Below, in pieces: positions 31,162-40,147 of a stretch of 40,562 bases of DNA. The notes beneath the pieces are model-generated. The model did not search any database, was not told where the DNA came from, and saw only the letters and a list, made by a program, of their open reading frames with translations. How positions within the stretch are numbered: position 1 is the stretch's first letter; the number at the start of each line of letters is the position of its first letter. A program made the position numbers and the translations under genes. The DNA is from Oscillospiraceae bacterium (GTDB lineage: Bacteria; Bacillota; Clostridia; Oscillospirales; Ruminococcaceae), in NCBI GenBank assembly GCA_018110825.1, contig JAGBCL010000001.1:1-40562 (forward strand), written 5' to 3'.

Positions 31162-32055
31162 TTAAGCACCTGCCCCGATTGTACCCTTAACAACGCCCTC
31201 TGCATATTCAACAAGGAACTGACCGCCATTCATAACAAGGCTTTCAATCTGTGCTCTTTCCTCGTTCTGATAACCTGACTTAATACCAATGTAACCAAGT
31301 TCATCAGTTGTAAGGTCAAATGCGTTTGCAACATCGCCATTCATTGTAAGGTAATAATAGATAAAGTTTTCTTTTGCAGTTGCAATAAATGTACCCTGTG
31401 CAATTCTTGAAGTCATAATCACAGTACCAAGACCGAGGAAGTTCTCAACATAATTCATACCGAATACAGTTGCAAGGCCTTCATCTTTGCCACCAAGATA
31501 TTCAGCGACATCAAGAGGGTTTACAAAATAAACTGCTTCTGCCGCATCATCTTCAAATTTAACCTGTAACTGTCCCCAAGCATTTGCAAGTGCGGATTTA
31601 AGGTTAGCACCCTCTGCGGTTGTGCTTCCTGTAATTTCGCCATTAAGGAAGCCAAAAAGGTCTGTTCTAATACCGCCCTGAACATCACGAAGTAACGCCT
31701 TGTCAGTATCATTAACTGCCACATTGTACCCTGACTTTTTAATTGCTTCTGCGGATACTGCTTTTCTCCACTTTTTAAGAGCGATTTCGCCCACAGGTGT
31801 TTTCTTTGTTTCATACTGTGAAAGCGGAATGATTTCACCTTCGGGAACTGCTCCGTCCTGTAATGTGCCTGTGGTGGAATATACATACATTGTTGTACCT
31901 TCCATCATAGGAATTTTTCTTGTTACGCCCAAAACTTCAATAAGTTTATTAAGCGAATTATGTGTAAACTGATTTACAAAATCAACCTCACGAACCTTTT
32001 TCATCTGTTCCTGTGTGATAAGGTTAGTTTCAGCACCTGTTAATACATTTGCCAT
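31162..32055 (-). CDS. Major capsid protein (HK97 fold, predicted)
   Basis: A 297-residue protein starting ATGGCAAATG after GGAGAAAACAAAT. EVDFVNQFTHNSLNKLIEVLGVTRK, PVGEIALKKWRKAVSAE and YLGGKDEGLATVFGMNYVENFLGLG are given in pieces: it has the N-arm, the E-loop-like strand and P-domain spine of HK97-type capsid proteins of Firmicutes phages. It follows the scaffold gene by 14 bases. Expected to form the icosahedral shell. Confidence 0.85.
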   Translation of the reverse strand: MANVLTGAETNLITQEQMKKVREVDFVNQFTHNSLNKLIEVLGVTRKIPMMEGTTMYVYSTTGTLQDGAVPEGEIIPLSQYETKKTPVGEIALKKWRKAVSAEAIKKSGYNVAVNDTDKALLRDVQGGIRTDLFGFLNGEITGSTTAEGANLKSALANAWGQLQVKFEDDAAEAVYFVNPLDVAEYLGGKDEGLATVFGMNYVENFLGLGTVIMTSRIAQGTFIATAKENFIYYYLTMNGDVANAFDLTTDELGYIGIKSGYQNEERAQIESLVMNGGQFLVEYAEGVVKGTIGAGA

Positions 32056-32069
32056 ATTTGTTTTCTCCT

Positions 32070-32699
32070 TTATACTTTTAATTCAGGGAATAAATGAGCG
32101 TGTGCAATCATTTCAGCCTGTCTTGTAGATGCGTCTTTGATTGCGTTTATTTCTTCTCTTGAAGAATACTTTTTACTACCCAAAGTTCCCTGCGGTGTAC
32201 CACCTGCCAACTTAACGGCAGTAACGCCTGTAAATGCGGTGGCATCGTCTTTTGTTAATGCGTGTAGAATATCGGCATCGCTCTGTCCCTCATATTCCTT
32301 GCTTTCAAGAGCATCGCCAAACTTTTTCAAATATGCTTCACGAATTGCATCGTGGTTAAACTTCTTATCGCCCAAAACGGCTTCAAATCGTTTGTTAATA
32401 CTTTCTGTCTTTTCGGCAAGTATGCGGTCTGCTTCTGCCTGTTTTTCCTTTGCAACATTTTCAGCCTGTAAAGCCTCAAACTTTGCTTTCCAATCCTCAC
32501 CGCTTGCGTTTGCGGTTTTCAATTCTTCGATTTCTTTGTTGAAATTGTCAATAGCCTCTTTTTTCTCTTTCAGTTCGGTTTCAAGTGCCGTGACTTTCGA
32601 CTTTGCTTTCTCAACATCAGCACCGTTCAAATCCATAACGGCTTTTAACTGTTCGTCTGTCGCATCGGCAAAAATTGCCTTGATTTCTTCACGCTTCAT
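32070..32699 (-). CDS. Scaffold protein (phage minor structural GP20-like)
   Basis: A 209-residue protein: a long coiled coil (residues about 25-115; EKAKSKVTALETELKEKKEAI, IEELKTANASGEDWKAKFEAL) and a helical C-terminus (TLGSKKYSSREEINAIKDA). This is the pattern of GP20-type scaffolds of Firmicutes siphophages. It is the first gene after the late promoter 32826-32854 and directly precedes the major capsid gene. Confidence 0.8.
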   Translation of the reverse strand: MKREEIKAIFADATDEQLKAVMDLNGADVEKAKSKVTALETELKEKKEAIDNFNKEIEELKTANASGEDWKAKFEALQAENVAKEKQAEADRILAEKTESINKRFEAVLGDKKFNHDAIREAYLKKFGDALESKEYEGQSDADILHALTKDDATAFTGVTAVKLAGGTPQGTLGSKKYSSREEINAIKDASTRQAEMIAHAHLFPELKV

Positions 32700-33409: not shown

Positions 33410-33581
33410 TGCTTTTCTCCTTCCTTTCCTTTGCTACGAGGTAGTCTTTCAATATCATTCTAACAAAGGCAGACAAGGACAATTCGCTGTCCTTTGCCGT
33501 TTTCTTTGCCTTTGCCAATAAATCTTTTGATATTCTTATTTTCAAAATATCAGTATATGTACTGTTCGATTGATTTTTCAA
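33399..33581 (-). CDS. Ribbon-helix-helix small DNA-binding protein
   Basis: A 60-residue protein started at TTG 33581 after AAGGAGAGGGAACGC; an in-frame TTG at 33605 lacks spacing. DILKIRISKDLLAKAKKTAKDSELSLSAFVRMIL (in pieces: KIRISKDLL, ELSLSAFVRMI) is a ribbon-helix-helix. It overlaps the end of the Ro60 gene by 32 bases. May regulate the Ro60 operon. Confidence 0.6.
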   Translation of the reverse strand: MKNQSNSTYTDILKIRISKDLLAKAKKTAKDSELSLSAFVRMILKDYLVAKERKEKSNDV

Positions 33582-34987
33582 GCGTTCCCTCTCCTTGTTC
33601 TGCAATTTTTATAAAATCAAATACCTTTTCGCTCCAACCTGCAATTATGTTGGTTTTCGCTCCGTGAAATTGCTGTGTGCCGTAACCCTGCAAGTCAATA
33701 GCGTGCACCCATATATCATTGCCTGATGCTTTTCTGTATTCGTCTGCGATTGATTGAACAGGCTTTCTTGAATACCAACCACCGCAAGAATTACATTCAT
33801 TGTCGGAAAGAATAATAACACGGTCAGCATTTATATTATCATCAATCATTTTTTTGGAAAGGCAAAAACATATTTGTACCACCGCCACAATATGAATTTG
33901 TAACAGTTTCAAGTATTCCGTTTCTGTGTGATATAGCATATTTCTTTATATCGCTATTGAAAGTATAAAAAACACTATTTTCGCAAATTTTATTTGCTAT
34001 CAACCCAAGCAACATTGCTATTTCATAACAACGCACTTTTGATTTATCGCTTATATTATCGCCCATAGAGCCTGAAACATCAACCGCAATTACTGTTGTT
34101 CCCTTAAAAGTAGGCATATTCTCAATAGATGCTTCAACAGCATTTTCAAGAACATCAAACAATCTGCTACCGCCAATATCCGCAAGTTCTTTATATGCAG
34201 ACAAAAAACGGAAAGGTAACTGTTTAGATTTTTTAACTTTTTCAGTATTTTCAATATCTGCCATTACCTTTTCAATGTTTTTAGGATCGGCATTAACAAT
34301 GTTTCTTAAATTACGAAGCAATGCCATATAGCCGACTTTTTCGCTATCAATCAACTTTTCCCAAGTTTCAGCGTTGTTTCCGTTTGCAGATAACTCTGTT
34401 TCCCAAGTCATAGGAATTTCAAGTTTATCTTCAAGTAATCTTTTCCACATATCCGATTGTGCGTTTGTTTTGGGTGTAGGTCTGCAAAGGCAAAGTAAAT
34501 CACGCATTTTTACCGCTTTTCCGTTGCCTTTATATTTTGCAAGTGTATATTCGTCAAACCCCTGCAAAACATCATTTATCCCCTTTTTCAATGCGTTAGG
34601 AATAGGCTTACCAAACAGGCTTATATAACAAGCCATAATTTCTGTAACATCACCGCCACGCAATGAAACACCTTTTACTGTTTGTCTAACAAAAGGCTTT
34701 CCCTCAATTTCGTGTGCTAAATATGCTACAAGAATATGGGATATAGAACGCATATTAAACTCGCGCCTTGCAAATACCGCAAGATTGGAAACAAACTTTG
34801 CATCTTGCTTAATTACATTTTTGATTGTTTCTTGAATTTCCGCTGAATTATCGCCATAGAATTTCTTTTCATTAAAGAACGAAGTTAAAACCTGCGTAAT
34901 AAGTTTTGATTTTTCGCTCATTCCATAAGCAACTCTACCGCTTTTGTTTTCTGTTTTGGTTGTGTTGTTTGTGTTAAATTTGCTCAT
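33550..34987 (-). pseudogene. Ro60 (TROVE-vWA) RNA-binding protein, frameshifted at an A7 run
   Basis: Frame 1 (34987-33842) has the helical-repeat TROVE domain (SRVAYGMSEKSKLITQVL, FNMRSISHILVAYLAH, KGVSLRGGDVTEIMACYI) and the vWA start with MIDAS DVSGSMGDN near residue 300, GGGTNMFLPF. It ends at a stop after a run of seven A (33849-33855 on the plus strand). The continuation, MIDDNINADRVIILSDNEC, DIWVHAIDLQGYGTQQFHG and KVFDFIKIAE, follows in the +1 frame to 33550. Removing one A joins them into about 478 residues, the expected size. Ro60 binds misfolded RNA and Y RNA. Three Y-like RNAs lie directly upstream. The shift may be a sequence or assembly error, a real mutation or programmed. The start follows TAGGAGGTAAAAA. 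Confidence 0.85.
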
Positions 34988-35010
34988 TTTTTACCTCCTA
35001 AAATTAAATA

Positions 35011-35090
35011 AGCAAGCGTGATAAATTCATAATCAGGTCAATTTCATATTAACGGTACGAAGTATCTGATTATTGCAATGCACGCTTGCT
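35011..35090 (-). ncRNA. Y-RNA-like RNA A, adjacent to Ro60
   Basis: Minus strand: AGCAAGCGTG paired with CACGCTTGCT, an internal loop of CATTGCA / GAATTTAT, then ATAATCAG/CTGATTAT enclosing a loop that begins ATACTTCG. It is the same architecture as RNAs B and C with completely different but paired stems. It ends 23 bases before the Ro60 start. Y RNAs bind Ro60 through such a bulged stem. Confidence 0.75.
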
Positions 35091-35098
35091 ATGGTATA

Positions 35099-35241
35099 AA
35101 AAGCAGATAAAATCTATAACAGTATCTATTATCGTTGCTCTACCAACTGAGCTACCCACCGATATGGTCGGTGGGGCAGGACTTGAACCTGCGACACACG
35201 GCTCCCAAAGCGAAGTATCTGTTATATGCAATACTGCTTTT
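35099..35241 (-). ncRNA. Y-RNA-like RNA B with permuted tRNA-Pro module (YrlA-type)
   Basis: Minus strand: stem AAAAGCAG/CTGCTTTT, internal loop TATTGCA / GATTTTAT, stem TATAACAG/CTGTTATA, then ATACTTCG. The loop is a tRNA in permuted order: anticodon-loop TTTGGGA, GCCGT, T-arm GCAGG-TTCAAGT-CCTGC, CCCACCG, A, CCA, then TAT, CGGTGGG, TA, D-arm GCTC-AGTTGGTA-GAGC, A, ACGAT. Acceptor CGGTGGG/CCCACCG pairs fully with C1-G72 and A73 and the anticodon loop reads TGG: the marks of bacterial tRNA-Pro. The anticodon stem (ACGAT/GCCGT) has about three pairs and one G-U. Established YrlA RNAs carry a tRNA-like domain. Confidence 0.85.
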
Positions 35242-35252
35242 CATCAAATATA

Positions 35253-35323
35253 GAAAACGGATAAAATTTATAACTGTATATTTTCAACAGCGCGAAGTAA
35301 CAGTTATATGCAATGCCGTTTGT
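35253..35323 (-). ncRNA. Y-RNA-like RNA C
   Basis: Minus strand: AAACGG/CCGTTT, internal loop CATTGCA / AATTTTAT, stem TATAACTG/CAGTTATA, then TTACTTCG and a short loop. Same design as A and B but no tRNA module. It is the first of the three after the candidate promoter 35344-35372. A further hairpin GTGTG/CACAC lies just before it. Confidence 0.7.
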
Positions 35324-35343
35324 GTGCCTTTTGAACACACTTA

Positions 35344-35728: not shown

Positions 35729-36925
35729 TTATGTTTTTGGTTTGCGAGGCACGGACATTCGCTTGGTTTCTGGATATAGTCCTGTTGCGTCGGTAATCTC
35801 GGTGTATTTGTCTTTGTATGCTTTTATTCGTTCATTACAGCGCTTTACAAGGGCTTTATCGCCTGATGCCTGTGCAACTGCTTTGATGTCCTTTTGCTCT
35901 CTTATGGCACTTTCTAATGCCCTCATTTTTTGCGAGAAGAAATATTTATTTCCCTCTAAATTACCAACCTTGTATTGCTTTTGGTTATCCGCTTCAATCT
36001 GTGTCAACTGTTCTTTGCTAAATCTTGGCTCAGATATACCGCACAGAATAGGGGTCTTATAATGCAAGCACCCATACTCGCCCAATGCTTGACTTGCAGA
36101 TTTTCCGTCAGGGCTTGTCGGGTCTGTTTCTTCAAAACCAATAAACTTAACGCCATTTATTGTTCGTGATTTACCAATGCAATATTGCTTACCCTGTACA
36201 AACATATGACTTGGTCTTGGTGAACTGTGAGCATCCACCTCGTAGCCGTCACACCCAAGTTCTTCTCCGACAAGTTCATTATATTCTATGGACGCTTGTT
36301 TCGCCCCCCAAAGCAGATTTTGACGGACTACTGTGTCTAATCGCCTTGAAACGCCACTCGCATATTCGACTTGAACGCCACCGCCACCAAGTTGTATTAT
36401 GCTTTCTCTCATAGCAGTATGGAAGTCTGTCGCGCCCGATGTAACTTGCATTACGGCTCTGTCAAGGATTTCAACATAGCCCTTTTGCATATTCACAAAT
36501 CGCCCTTTTGCATTTCGTGTCCTCAACATAGATGTCTTTGCAAGGTTTATCATCGTTTCGCCTGTGGTCTTTGCGTAGGCTCTTGCTATTGCTTGTAGTT
36601 CCCTATTCTCCGCAAACGGCACAAACTTTTTGCCCCTGTAATCATACAAGGGTTGGTTTGCAAGGTGTTGTTCGGTCAATAAATCCGCATACATCTGCTC
36701 AATCTGTGATATGTTGTAACCTGTAACCTTTGCAAGTTCTTTTGTTATGGCATCCATATCTTGCTTGACTGTTGCGATGTTGTTTATGCTCTTAACATCA
36801 GCCAAAGAAAGTTTGCCGTACTTCTTTATTCTTTTACCTATTCGGGTGAGAACATTTTGCTCCCACCCCGACACATTATTCATCAATAGATTTGCCTGTT
36901 GTTCTAACTTTGAAATATCAGCCAT
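35729..36925 (-). CDS. Minor capsid protein (Phage_min_cap2 type)
   Basis: A 398-residue protein matching the phage minor capsid protein 2 family: EQMYADLLTEQHLANQPLY and REL(QAIARAYAKTTGETMINL), GYVEILDRAVMQVTSGATD, EYASGVSRRLDTVVRQN(LLWG), SSPRPSHMFVQGKQYC and GCLHYKTPILCG. These proteins join portal and capsid or are ejected. It starts by TAATG overlap with the small gene before it. The structural gene is in an operon with IscB and the methylase, away from the portal, because the accessory genes lie between. Confidence 0.8.
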   Translation of the reverse strand: MADISKLEQQANLLMNNVSGWEQNVLTRIGKRIKKYGKLSLADVKSINNIATVKQDMDAITKELAKVTGYNISQIEQMYADLLTEQHLANQPLYDYRGKKFVPFAENRELQAIARAYAKTTGETMINLAKTSMLRTRNAKGRFVNMQKGYVEILDRAVMQVTSGATDFHTAMRESIIQLGGGGVQVEYASGVSRRLDTVVRQNLLWGAKQASIEYNELVGEELGCDGYEVDAHSSPRPSHMFVQGKQYCIGKSRTINGVKFIGFEETDPTSPDGKSASQALGEYGCLHYKTPILCGISEPRFSKEQLTQIEADNQKQYKVGNLEGNKYFFSQKMRALESAIREQKDIKAVAQASGDKALVKRCNERIKAYKDKYTEITDATGLYPETKRMSVPRKPKT

Positions 36926-38496: not shown

Positions 38497-38675
38497 TATT
38501 CGCCACCGCCTTTCTCGGTTGGGTGGTCGGCATCTTCAAATCCGATAACTTTCACAAGTCCGTCCATAACAGAATTAGCCATTATTCCGCTTACTTCTTT
38601 AGCATCAATAATTTTAGCGTTGTATCTTACGCCATCTTTTACTGCAAATATTTCAAAATAAATTCCGTCTTTCAT
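38496..38675 (-). CDS. 59-residue protein overlapping the IscB end
   Basis: Starts ATG 38675 after GAGGGGAA, stops TAA 38496. Reads MKDGIYFEIFAVKDGVRYNAK, then VSGIMANSVMDGLVK and FEDADHP. It overlaps the last 23 bases of IscB in another frame. Overlap TAATG with the next gene supports translation. Function unknown. Confidence 0.6.
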   Translation of the reverse strand: MKDGIYFEIFAVKDGVRYNAKIIDAKEVSGIMANSVMDGLVKVIGFEDADHPTEKGGGE

Positions 38676-39900
38676 TTCCCCTCATCTTCCTTTCTCTTAA
38701 TACTGTTGTATTGTGTCTTATTCTTTTTAATTGTTTATAACTGATAGAGTCGTTATTGACCTTATATCCGTCTAAACTTCTTACATTGAAATATCCCGAT
38801 TTTCTTCTGCCGAAAACAAAATATCTTTCGCCTTGATATTCAACGGTATCAAACAATCTAAAACCAAAAACCTCTCTCGGTGATTGATTATTTTTCTTTT
38901 TACCGCCTTTTATAAAATTATCCTTTGTTGCTTTTCTGTTTTGCCGTCTTACGCACTTCACAAACCAATAATATTGTAAAGGTTTTGCGTTTGTGTTTCC
39001 ACTTATACAGAAAGCATCAATATAATGTTCTTTCGGAAATTCGTTTTGTATTCTAACGCTTTTTGTGATATAACCATAAGTTTCAATGACATTCGGGTAT
39101 ATTTCTCTTAATCTTTTCAACAATTCTTTTCTCATAACACCCATAAAATGTGCGTGTCTAAAACTCCTACCTCTTTGAACATTTAATTTTATTTTGCCTT
39201 TGTGATAATCTTCGTGGCAAGTTTCACACAAACAAATCAAATTGTTTGGAGCATTACCGCCTGTTTTACGGCTTTCGATGTGATGAACATTCAGCCTGTT
39301 ATCTTTCGATTTCCCTTTGCAATGCTGACATTTGTGGTTATCTCTCCACAAAACATATTCCCTTACATTCCAAAAGCCTAATTGATTTCCCTGCTGATAT
39401 TCTTCTCCGATGATTTCGGGATTGTTGATTTTTTGAATATCAAATTGAGCAGTTTCAACAATGATTTTGCTAACAGGAATAATGGAACAAATACGCTTGA
39501 TTTCTTGTATATGCGAATTTATCTTTTGTTCAACGCTCGGAGCGTACTCCCTTGAACTTATCCTATTATCAAATCGTGGTTTTCTGTATCTCAATTTGTT
39601 TCTTCTTGACTTTCTCGCTTCTCGCCTTAACGATATTTTTTCAACAATATCATTACGCAATTCAACGACCGCAGAATATAACTCTTTATTTTCTGTTGTT
39701 GCCGATATTCCCATATACTTACTTCCTGCATCAACACCAAGATTTACACCCTGCACTTGATTTTCACATTCAAACAATAATTGAATAGTGAACGGCTCAT
39801 ATTTTGTTATTTTGGCTTTTCCTTGCTTCAATAACTTTCTTGCTTTTGCCTCATTACAAGGCATTAACGGTTGTTTTTGTAAATTTAACACATACACCAT
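38653..39900 (-). CDS. iscB: IscB RNA-guided nuclease (PLMP-RuvC-HNH)
   Basis: A 415-residue protein with all IscB parts: PLMP motif (P11-P14), RuvC-I with GVDAGSKY (D57), arginine-rich bridge (RREARKSRRNKLRYRKPRF), RuvC-II with IIVETA (E149), HNH with CQHC (191-194), NVHHIE (206-207) and CETCH (225-229), and RuvC-III EHYIDA (H292, D295). Catalytic residues are intact. IscB uses an omega RNA to cut DNA and is the ancestor of Cas9. A structured RNA region lies upstream (39901-40147). There is no TnpA transposase. Start follows AGGAGG. It overlaps the next gene at its end. Confidence 0.95.
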   Translation of the reverse strand: MVYVLNLQKQPLMPCNEAKARKLLKQGKAKITKYEPFTIQLLFECENQVQGVNLGVDAGSKYMGISATTENKELYSAVVELRNDIVEKISLRREARKSRRNKLRYRKPRFDNRISSREYAPSVEQKINSHIQEIKRICSIIPVSKIIVETAQFDIQKINNPEIIGEEYQQGNQLGFWNVREYVLWRDNHKCQHCKGKSKDNRLNVHHIESRKTGGNAPNNLICLCETCHEDYHKGKIKLNVQRGRSFRHAHFMGVMRKELLKRLREIYPNVIETYGYITKSVRIQNEFPKEHYIDAFCISGNTNAKPLQYYWFVKCVRRQNRKATKDNFIKGGKKKNNQSPREVFGFRLFDTVEYQGERYFVFGRRKSGYFNVRSLDGYKVNNDSISYKQLKRIRHNTTVLRERKMRGNERRNLF

Positions 39901-40147
39901 TGTTTATAAAACCTCCTGTATGTTAGAGTGGTTGCTCCACGACAATGTTATCCAAAGGTTTTTATACGCAACACTATTCCTACCCATTAGAATTGTTTAA
40001 TCACATACCGCAGAGCGTAGAACTGAAGCGTACATTCTACGGTGCCTATATATTCTTTGGTAACGGAGGGCATACGCCCAAAGTCTGATTAGCAAAAGAT
40101 ATAATCTTAACATTACTGTTTGGGTTGCTAACTTCTCTGCTTATCTA
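39901..40147 (-). ncRNA. Candidate omega RNA (HEARO) upstream of IscB
   Basis: About 247 bases from the RHH stop to the IscB start. Minus-strand hairpins: TTAGCAA/TTGCTAA, AACA/TGTT, AAGAT/ATCTT, a possible pseudoknot CCCAAA with TTTGGG, GGGC-GTAT-GCCC, GTAGAA/TTCTAC with ACCG/CGGT, and GTTGC/GCAAC before the ribosome site. Size, place and multi-stem structure fit the IscB omega RNA. The guide would be at its 5' end, close to the RHH gene end; exact boundaries need folding and RNA data. Confidence 0.7.

Follow-up and report, generated by a model that had tools for sequence, protein, structure and literature searches.

Chen 2014 and Wang 2018 are reportedly studies of YrlA, a Y RNA with a tRNA-like domain. 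Circularly permuted superpositions of the bacterial Y RNA (6CU1) with tRNAs are given in the excerpts of PMC11472068 used here, by which a permuted order in a bacterial Y RNA is already known and is the YrlA architecture. According to the excerpts of PMC8394870, the YrlA domain is likened to the D, T and acceptor arms of a tRNA, is modified by DusA and TruB and is bound by PNPase. YrlA has been suggested to act as a competitive inhibitor of an anticodon nuclease, which does not accept the Salmonella YrlA domain as a substrate (excerpts of PMC7790460). Phage tRNAs, in turn, are proposed to counter anticodon nucleases (PMC10264068; also PMC11555353; both in part). Permuted tRNAs are further described for Thermofilum pendens, where they encode CCA and one has a linker of 1 nt; removal of short linkers is called open in the portion of PMC3978253 at hand.

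The window, i.e., the whole analyzed stretch of 40,562 nucleotides, carries a Y RNA, here named RNA B, at 35098..35242 on the minus strand (5' end at 35242, both ends placed from the stem). It combines a base stem with a permuted tRNA-Pro(UGG) domain at 35217-35127 (-). The stem, which is long and has paired ends in the predicted fold, is formed by a 5' strand of about 25 bases (35218..35242) and a 3' strand of about 29 bases (35098..35126), predicted to pair with each other; these and all following parts lie on the minus strand. After the stem comes the motif TACTTC (35212..35217), which is common to Ro60-linked RNAs and presumably contacts Ro60. It is followed by GC-TTTGGGA-GC, comprising the anticodon loop TTTGGGA (tRNA positions 32-38; 35203..35209) with the anticodon TGG at 35205-35207, closed by pairing of GC (35210-35211) with GC (35201-35202). 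Then follow CGT (tRNA 41-43; 35198..35200), GTGTC, the T arm GCAGG-TTCAAGT-CCTGC (35176..35192) and the acceptor 3' half CCCACCG (66-72; 35169..35175). A73 with an encoded CCA (35165..35168), placed where N-CCA is enriched in the family, and the linker TAT (35162..35164) lead from there to base 1 of the acceptor 5' half CGGTGGG (1-7; 35155..35161), which forms seven base pairs with the 3' half. TA, the D arm GCTC-AGTTGGTA-GAGC (35137..35152), a single A and ACG (tRNA 27-29; 35133..35135), which pairs with CGT at 35198-35200, come last.

In this order, the opening of the tRNA falls between positions 29 and 30, such that ACG (27-29) and GC (30-31) pair with GCCGT (39-43), and the Y RNA stem occupies the opening. 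The tRNA is closed through A73-CCA-TAT-C1. As written in the gene, the CCA lies inside a closed acceptor loop, and there is no free 3' CCA end. The first-pass annotation had described a tRNA-Pro cut in the anticodon stem and rejoined through the CCA-to-base-1 end, with C1-G72, A73, the GG of the anticodon (here G35 and G36), an encoded CCA and a seven-base-pair acceptor; all of its named pieces were recovered on the minus strand, and both the cut and the join are borne out. Its coordinates, 35123..35210, do locate RNA B, but the extent is slightly wider, with the domain at 35217-35127 and the whole RNA at about 35242-35098 (-). The observation of a complete permuted tRNA-Pro(UGG) inside a Ro60-linked Y RNA holds.

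In a search of 501 bases, the Rfam YrlA model matches 35113-35225 with 45.2 bits (E 5.9e-9). This score does not reach the gathering cut-off of RF02553 (69), at which threshold RNA B is not reported, and hence we class it as having the same architecture and do not file it under RF02553. We constructed two covariance models. R1 was built from 13 seeds, the window being one of them, which had been chosen with a search pattern that combined TACTT with letters of the T and D loops of tRNAs. R2 consists of 113 rows from other contigs and no window sequence, the rows themselves having been gathered with R1. Across the 40562 bases of the whole window, R2 matches RNA B at 88.2 bits (E 5.6e-19); its sole other match reaches 23.0 bits (E 0.0016) and overlaps a tRNA-Gln.

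Folding of the 145-base RNA B yields a z of -4.4, with none of 200 shuffles as stable, and for the 91-base core alone z is -1.9, a stability that 12 of 200 shuffles also reach. Without constraints, the minimum-energy fold lies at -50.5 kcal/mol and has no anticodon arm; the forced tRNA form, at -46.5, is 4 kcal/mol worse. Since the minimum-energy fold pairs the anticodon-arm stretch otherwise, the tRNA form of RNA B rests on covariation and not on folding energy.

RNA B lies just upstream of a Ro60 gene; about 110 bases separate the 3' end of the RNA from position 34987, where the TROVE-containing frame starts. This frame (33842..34987, -) covers TROVE and the start of the vWA domain (PF05731, E 2.1e-32; PHROG 850, E 9.2e-41), and a PF25045 match (E 2.4e-5, 24.8 bits) stays under the curated 27.7. 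Near 33850, within the vWA domain (33842-33939), the reading frame is interrupted at a stretch of A and goes on in another frame. The remainder of the vWA domain at 33550..33939 (-) has no Pfam match on its own; its C-terminal residues resemble, by eye, the C-terminus of the intact Ro60 of a related locus (L005). The break may reflect an assembly error, decay or slippage, and thus the copy in the window may be decaying or misassembled. Two further Y RNAs with the motif TACTTCG and without a tRNA domain accompany RNA B, the hairpin Y RNA A at 35005..35095 (-; fold z -5.2) and the short hairpin Y RNA C at 35250..35330 (-), which folds weakly (z -1.4, 18 of 200 shuffles as good).

The Ro60/Y RNA cassette is flanked on one side by the gene of a minor head protein (35729-36925, -) and on the other by that of a head scaffolding protein (32070-32699, -), beyond which lies the major head protein (31162-32055, -). 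One small ORF is found in between, and all are encoded on the minus strand. By this position it resembles a cargo cassette within a cluster of phage head genes. No terminator-like sites were found, and the three promoter-like sites equal the shuffle level and are all on the opposite strand. In the same phage contig, a HEARO RNA (Rfam RF02033, 105.9 bits) at 39928-40132 (-) lies directly upstream of a protein with RRXRR and HNH domains (38653-39900, -), which we take to be IscB/IsrB-like. Among related loci, Ro60 and a permuted Y RNA are followed by RtcB in the viral contig L014 (1743-4292), and an RNA ligase precedes Ro60 and a permuted Y RNA in Streptomyces phage JustBecause (L010, 3221-5657).

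Relatives were gathered by Ro60 searches of viral and genome contigs (best loci, at most 80 each) and by an RNA pattern. The searches yield a family of permuted tRNA-like RNAs adjoining Ro60. In the 13 seeds, 97.4% of the cells are paired, and 15 of 21 pairs are changed on both sides, including all seven acceptor pairs. A second sample of 102 distinct rows, which were fitted to the model and include tRNA-overlapping matches, is 94.9% paired, with a covariation score of 0.738 as against 0.184 when shuffled and at most 0.129 when slid. For the short stem ACG/CGT (27-29/41-43), 92.3% and 85.3% of the cells are paired in relatives, and all three pairs are changed on both sides.

Two filtered sets, both gathered with R1, underlie the counts given below. 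The search for set 1 covered the window plus 92 of the 99 loci L004-L102, leaving out L017, L018 and L022 (by eye, pattern matches without an RNA) as well as L026, L029, L034 and L069 (second copies of contigs already present). Its 296 aligned matches (146 plus the best 150 of 163) were reduced to 161 by dropping 36 from the sources L008-L022, which had been chosen by RNA similarity or pattern, 50 overlapping tRNAs, 34 that paired weakly and 15 duplicates; among those kept are the window and three further seed loci (L005, L006, L007). For set 2, 96 of the 139 new loci L218-L356 were taken; 42 were omitted because their contigs, compared by name, already occurred in set 1 or 2, and L260 because no DNA precedes its Ro60 match. 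From 113 matches, 17, 17 and 9 were dropped (17 for overlap with ARAGORN calls) to give 70, so that both sets together comprise 231 RNAs. TACTTC stands at the start of 187 of these 231 model matches, a frequency that is partly by construction, since the seeds were collected with a pattern beginning with TACTT. Within the same taxonomic order, the RNA model has matches in 2 of 295 genomes, including the source genome (E 1e-9, strict filters), a pattern as expected of mobile cargo. In two Enterococcus Schiekviruses, unannotated permuted tRNA-like RNAs (L008, 2989-3078 and 2813-2898; L009, 1989-2080 and 1813-1898) adjoin a protein that bears only the label hypothetical; in L008 this protein matches DUF2828 and DUF7788, weakly VWA_2, and not TROVE.

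That RNA B is a chance arrangement or the remnant of two tandem tRNA-Pro genes has some footing in similarity searches. Among the 40 BLAST matches listed of 469 records, 7 have a tRNA-Pro annotated with a neighbouring tRNA, and the model also matches real tRNAs, with 50 of the 296 aligned matches of set 1 overlapping ARAGORN calls. Against this stand the perfect pairing and covariation of the acceptor halves, the position of the pieces inside a Y stem and the R2 match with its E of 5.6e-19. ARAGORN-overlapping matches were removed before counting (50 of 296 in set 1, 17 of 113 in set 2). The probability left to such an origin is practically nil, and tandem tRNA genes as the source of RNA B are ruled out by acceptor halves that pair and covary.

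On the unaltered window, ARAGORN calls a tRNA-Gln only, the tRNA-Gln(TTG) gene of the phage contig at 15768-15842 (-), and misses RNA B, as expected from the permuted order. When the parts are put into linear order with CCA and neutral flanks, and only then, it calls a complete tRNA-Pro(tgg) cloverleaf with UGG, C1-G72 and A73. We compared the linearised RNA with 30 host tRNAs out of the 37 RF00005 matches in the genome. The nearest is tRNA-Pro, with 55 of 74 columns identical, and it remains the nearest with the anticodon loop masked (48 of 74 columns). Since the joined parts make up a complete tRNA-Pro, one may ask whether the locus is a true permuted tRNA gene, from which the Y stem is spliced out, e.g., by RtcB, to leave a normal tRNA-Pro; RtcB after the Ro60 of one relative and the RNA ligase before that of one phage would suit such a pathway. 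However, bacteria are not known to have a splicing endonuclease of archaeal or eukaryotic type, the host already has its own tRNA-Pro, and the acceptor hairpins of relatives covary although 209 of 231 are devoid of N-CCA. We regard this origin as highly improbable.

Members of the family often have a hairpin at the place of the anticodon arm, and its loop was studied across the two sets. In set 1, 104 of the 161 RNAs have a 7-base loop, closed by two pairs in 70; a closed 7-base loop is thus absent in 91 of 161. These 70 loops show T33 in 63, R37 in 68 and A38 in 57 cases, and 35 of them are identical to a loop of the reference tRNAs (n=230), against a mean of 1.2 and a maximum of 5 in within-loop shuffles. 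Set 2 has 34 closed 7-base loops among 70 RNAs, showing T33 in 32, R37 in 34 and A38 in 29, with 18 of 34 identical to reference loops (within-loop shuffle mean 0.46, max 4). Because shuffling within loops inflates the apparent excess of exact matches, the stricter column shuffle is the more trustworthy control: both sets together have 53 of 104 closed loops identical to the reference, as compared to a mean of 28.9 and a maximum of 42. A model-free count points the same way, since 72 of 244 sequences are identical to a reference loop exactly 2 bases after TACTTC, and only 0-13 at 11 other offsets.

Positions 36 and 37 follow the tRNA rule in the 104 closed loops: U36A37, the t6A type of anticodon loop, occurs 61 times and G36G37, the m1G type, 19 times, with U36G37 once and G36A37 five times (Fisher 1.4e-13). 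The two regular combinations account for 80 of 104 loops, and U36 or G36 for 88 of 104 versus 143 of the 230 reference tRNAs. Of these reference tRNAs, which are ARAGORN calls, 88 overlap R1 matches, so that the independence of some from the Y RNAs is doubtful; the loop test was therefore repeated with the other 142 (83 loops). With this cleaned reference, 32 of 70 loops in set 1 are identical (column mean 16.7, max 26); set 2 has 15 of 34 (column mean 8.8, max 17, p 0.005), and the anchor-only count is 59 versus 0-12 at other offsets. Restricting the reference to the 30 host tRNAs (28 loops) leaves 25 of 70 in set 1 (column mean 9.3, max 18) and no excess over the column shuffle in set 2 (7 of 34, mean 4.5, p 0.14). 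After clustering at 75% similarity, 31 loops are left, 27 of them with T33 and 12 identical to the reference. The loop of many Ro60-linked Y RNAs is of the anticodon type, with U33, R37 and the 36/37 rule.

In general, the remainder of the tRNA domain does not follow the isotype of its loop. Measured against the uncleaned reference, the body agrees in 6 of 53 cases (null 4.1, p 0.21), and the 1-72 pair shows no dependence either (p 0.50; with N73, p 0.14). Isotype-faithful mimicry as a family rule is thus unsupported (body p 0.21, 1-72 pair p 0.50). RNA B itself matches Pro in both body and 1-72 pair, and the RNAs with its loop TTTGGGA form a partial exception to the absent isotype fidelity. 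C1-G72 occurs in 8 of 10 TTTGGGA RNAs versus 48 of 252 others when tRNA overlaps are left in, a count that comprises related, phylogenetically non-independent sequences, 5 of the 10 having first been found by a pattern containing the loop. In the filtered sets the figures are 4 of 5 versus 42 of 215, and for the wider Pro-loop class of set 1 they are 3 of 9, with 27 of 152 overall. The first-pass annotation had named as the contrary case relatives that lack CCA and C1-G72 and show no covariation; what we find is C1-G72 in 8 of the 10 TTTGGGA RNAs and covariation of all seven acceptor pairs. As the isotype of the loops is matched by neither body nor 1-72 pair, the loops may be generic U-turn loops and not specific anticodons.

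This bears on the idea that each Y RNA imitates the particular tRNA attacked by a nuclease of the host and so serves as a specific decoy. Family loops of the anticodon type that obey tRNA rules speak for it, as do the nuclease inhibition suggested for YrlA (PMC7790460, in part) and the phage tRNAs thought to be directed against anticodon nucleases (PMC10264068 and PMC11555353, in part). The body, however, does not match the loop isotype, and the Salmonella YrlA domain is not cut by the nuclease in the excerpts of PMC7790460, which fits a competitor and not a cleavable bait. A specific decoy is a real but clearly lesser possibility.

An N-CCA after the acceptor 3' half is present in 22 of the 231 RNAs and absent in 209. 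Of the 116 loops in set 1 with 4 bases or more, 17 have it at loop positions 2-4, where 5000 shuffles average 2.0 and never exceed 9; a CCA is placed otherwise in 2 further loops. In set 2, 5 of 51 loops of at least 4 bases carry it (shuffle mean 0.64, max 5, p 0.0004), with other placement in 2. A strict set requiring TACTTC and seven pairs has N-CCA in 19 of 101 (shuffle 1.9, max 8) and in 7 of 47 cluster representatives. Since it exceeds shuffles in two samples, N-CCA is not mere coincidence for the family; a minority of the RNAs shows it as a genuine, repeated feature, and it is not the family rule. Most acceptor loops are short, with at most 7 bases in 161 and at most 4 bases in 97 of 231, and caps include TTCG and GCAA. 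L005, the most similar TTTGGGA-type RNA among those seen, has AACAT where RNA B has ACCATAT. N-CCA loops (ACCAT and CCCATATG) do occur in L023 and L025, whose Ro60 proteins (71% and 70% identical) are among the nearest in the viral set, in RNAs without a TTTGGGA loop, i.e., of another RNA type. In a small sample, RNAs with CCA are not nearer to real tRNAs than the rest (12 vs 57, p 0.42 and 0.63).

The first-pass annotation had further proposed that RNase P nicks before C1 and that TAT is trimmed away, so that a tRNA-Pro with a free CCA could be charged while on Ro60. Put for the family, opening of the acceptor loop in vivo would be the reason why a subset of Y RNAs, RNA B among them, keeps the discriminator, CCA and a short linker, and the nicked but complete tRNA, held on Ro60 through a stem in its anticodon arm, would be bound or charged like tRNA-Pro. 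RNA B has C1-G72, A73, the anticodon GG and an encoded CCA; 22 of 231 RNAs share N-CCA, as do 7 of 47 cluster representatives, C1-G72 is present in 8 of 10 TTTGGGA RNAs (4 of 5 filtered), and the lack of closeness of CCA-bearing RNAs to real tRNAs (p 0.42, 0.63) argues against a mere recent relic. Thermofilum pendens offers a parallel, with CCA encoded in permuted tRNAs and one linker of 1 nt (PMC3978253, in part). On the other side, the closest TTTGGGA-type RNA seen reads AACAT, 209 of 231 loops are without N-CCA and 161 of 231 have at most 7 bases, and a closed loop of 5-7 bases may not fit RNase P. In particular, the acceptor forms a closed hairpin, and none of body (p 0.21), 1-72 pair (p 0.50) and N73 (p 0.14) follows the loop isotype, which disfavours a chargeable nicked acceptor. 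We consider both this form of the proposal and its extension to a Y RNA subset very unlikely.

Alternatively, the head may have descended from a tRNA by permutation, in which case the anticodon arm and CCA would be functionless leftovers and the elbow alone would matter. CCA is missing in 209 of 231 relatives, some loops (ACTAT, AACAT, ACCTT) resemble an altered CCA, and body and loop isotypes disagree, all of which this view would accommodate. Yet leftovers should decay, and the anticodon arm with its 36/37 rule is kept in two samples, in viral contigs as well as Clostridia and Bacteroidota records, with a covarying stem. A descent of this kind without retained function appears rather unlikely. 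A narrower version, in which CCA is a recent relic, was set aside in view of the small-sample comparison with real tRNAs.

The reading we favour, with a probability of roughly 0.6, is that RNA B is a YrlA-type Y RNA of a phage or prophage, a Ro60-tethered, non-chargeable mimic of a whole tRNA-Pro(UGG) on which tRNA-reading proteins dock. It starts from the observed sequence, the covarying permuted structure, the linkage to Ro60, tRNA-type loop rules and the recurrent N-CCA. We infer that RNA B is expressed and that its base stem and TACTTCG motif hold Ro60. Its head would present an elbow of D and T arms, a seven-base-pair acceptor hairpin over A-CCA-TAT and an anticodon arm made from GC/GC and ACG/CGT. 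Proteins that read tRNAs could dock on this head and be brought to, or kept busy by, the Ro60 particle. Candidate partners would be modification enzymes, a Ro60-associated RNase, e.g., PNPase, and, given that the anticodon arm is kept, anticodon-reading proteins; for the phage, the RNA would probably lure the anticodon nucleases of the host or compete for them. The docking and decoy steps lean on the modification of YrlA by DusA and TruB, the binding of PNPase, the suggested nuclease inhibition and the proposals made for phage tRNAs, each as given in the excerpts cited above. Counted against the whole-tRNA mimic are the minimum-energy fold, the core z of -1.9, the isotype mismatch, the host-only result of set 2 (p 0.14), the 91 of 161 RNAs without a closed loop and the broken Ro60 frame. 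If, in phages and gut bacteria, the head does reach down to an anticodon loop with the 36/37 rule, not just the elbow but also the anticodon region may be read by its partner, and the leads would then be modification enzymes, translation or the anticodon nucleases of the host. The recurring N-CCA raises a second and sharper question about the acceptor end.

How, then, does RNA B compare with known RNAs? tmRNA is a tRNA mimic that serves another purpose, as is proposed here for RNA B. With the host tRNA-Pro(UGG), RNA B shares the anticodon loop, C1-G72 and A73, whereas it is permuted and differs in acceptor and anticodon stems. Permuted tRNA genes of algae and Thermofilum, as described in the excerpts of PMC3978253, likewise place the 3' half before the 5' half and have a linker between the acceptor ends; one archaeal case, with an encoded CCA and a 1-nt linker, resembles the NCCAY loops of the Y RNA family. 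In contrast to them, the opening of RNA B holds a Y stem, the RNA is linked to Ro60, and 209 of its 231 relatives do without N-CCA. With YrlA (RF02553, 6CU1), RNA B has in common the Ro60 neighbour, the base stem and the order T arm, acceptor hairpin, D arm. Two features set it apart from YrlA as described, the complete anticodon arm with its TTTGGGA loop and the A-CCA encoded in the acceptor loop. In the open-library literature, the primary YrlA papers lying outside this search, no anticodon arm in Y RNAs was found. The anticodon arm together with the recurring CCA suggests a fuller mimicry of tRNA than is described for YrlA in the accessible literature.
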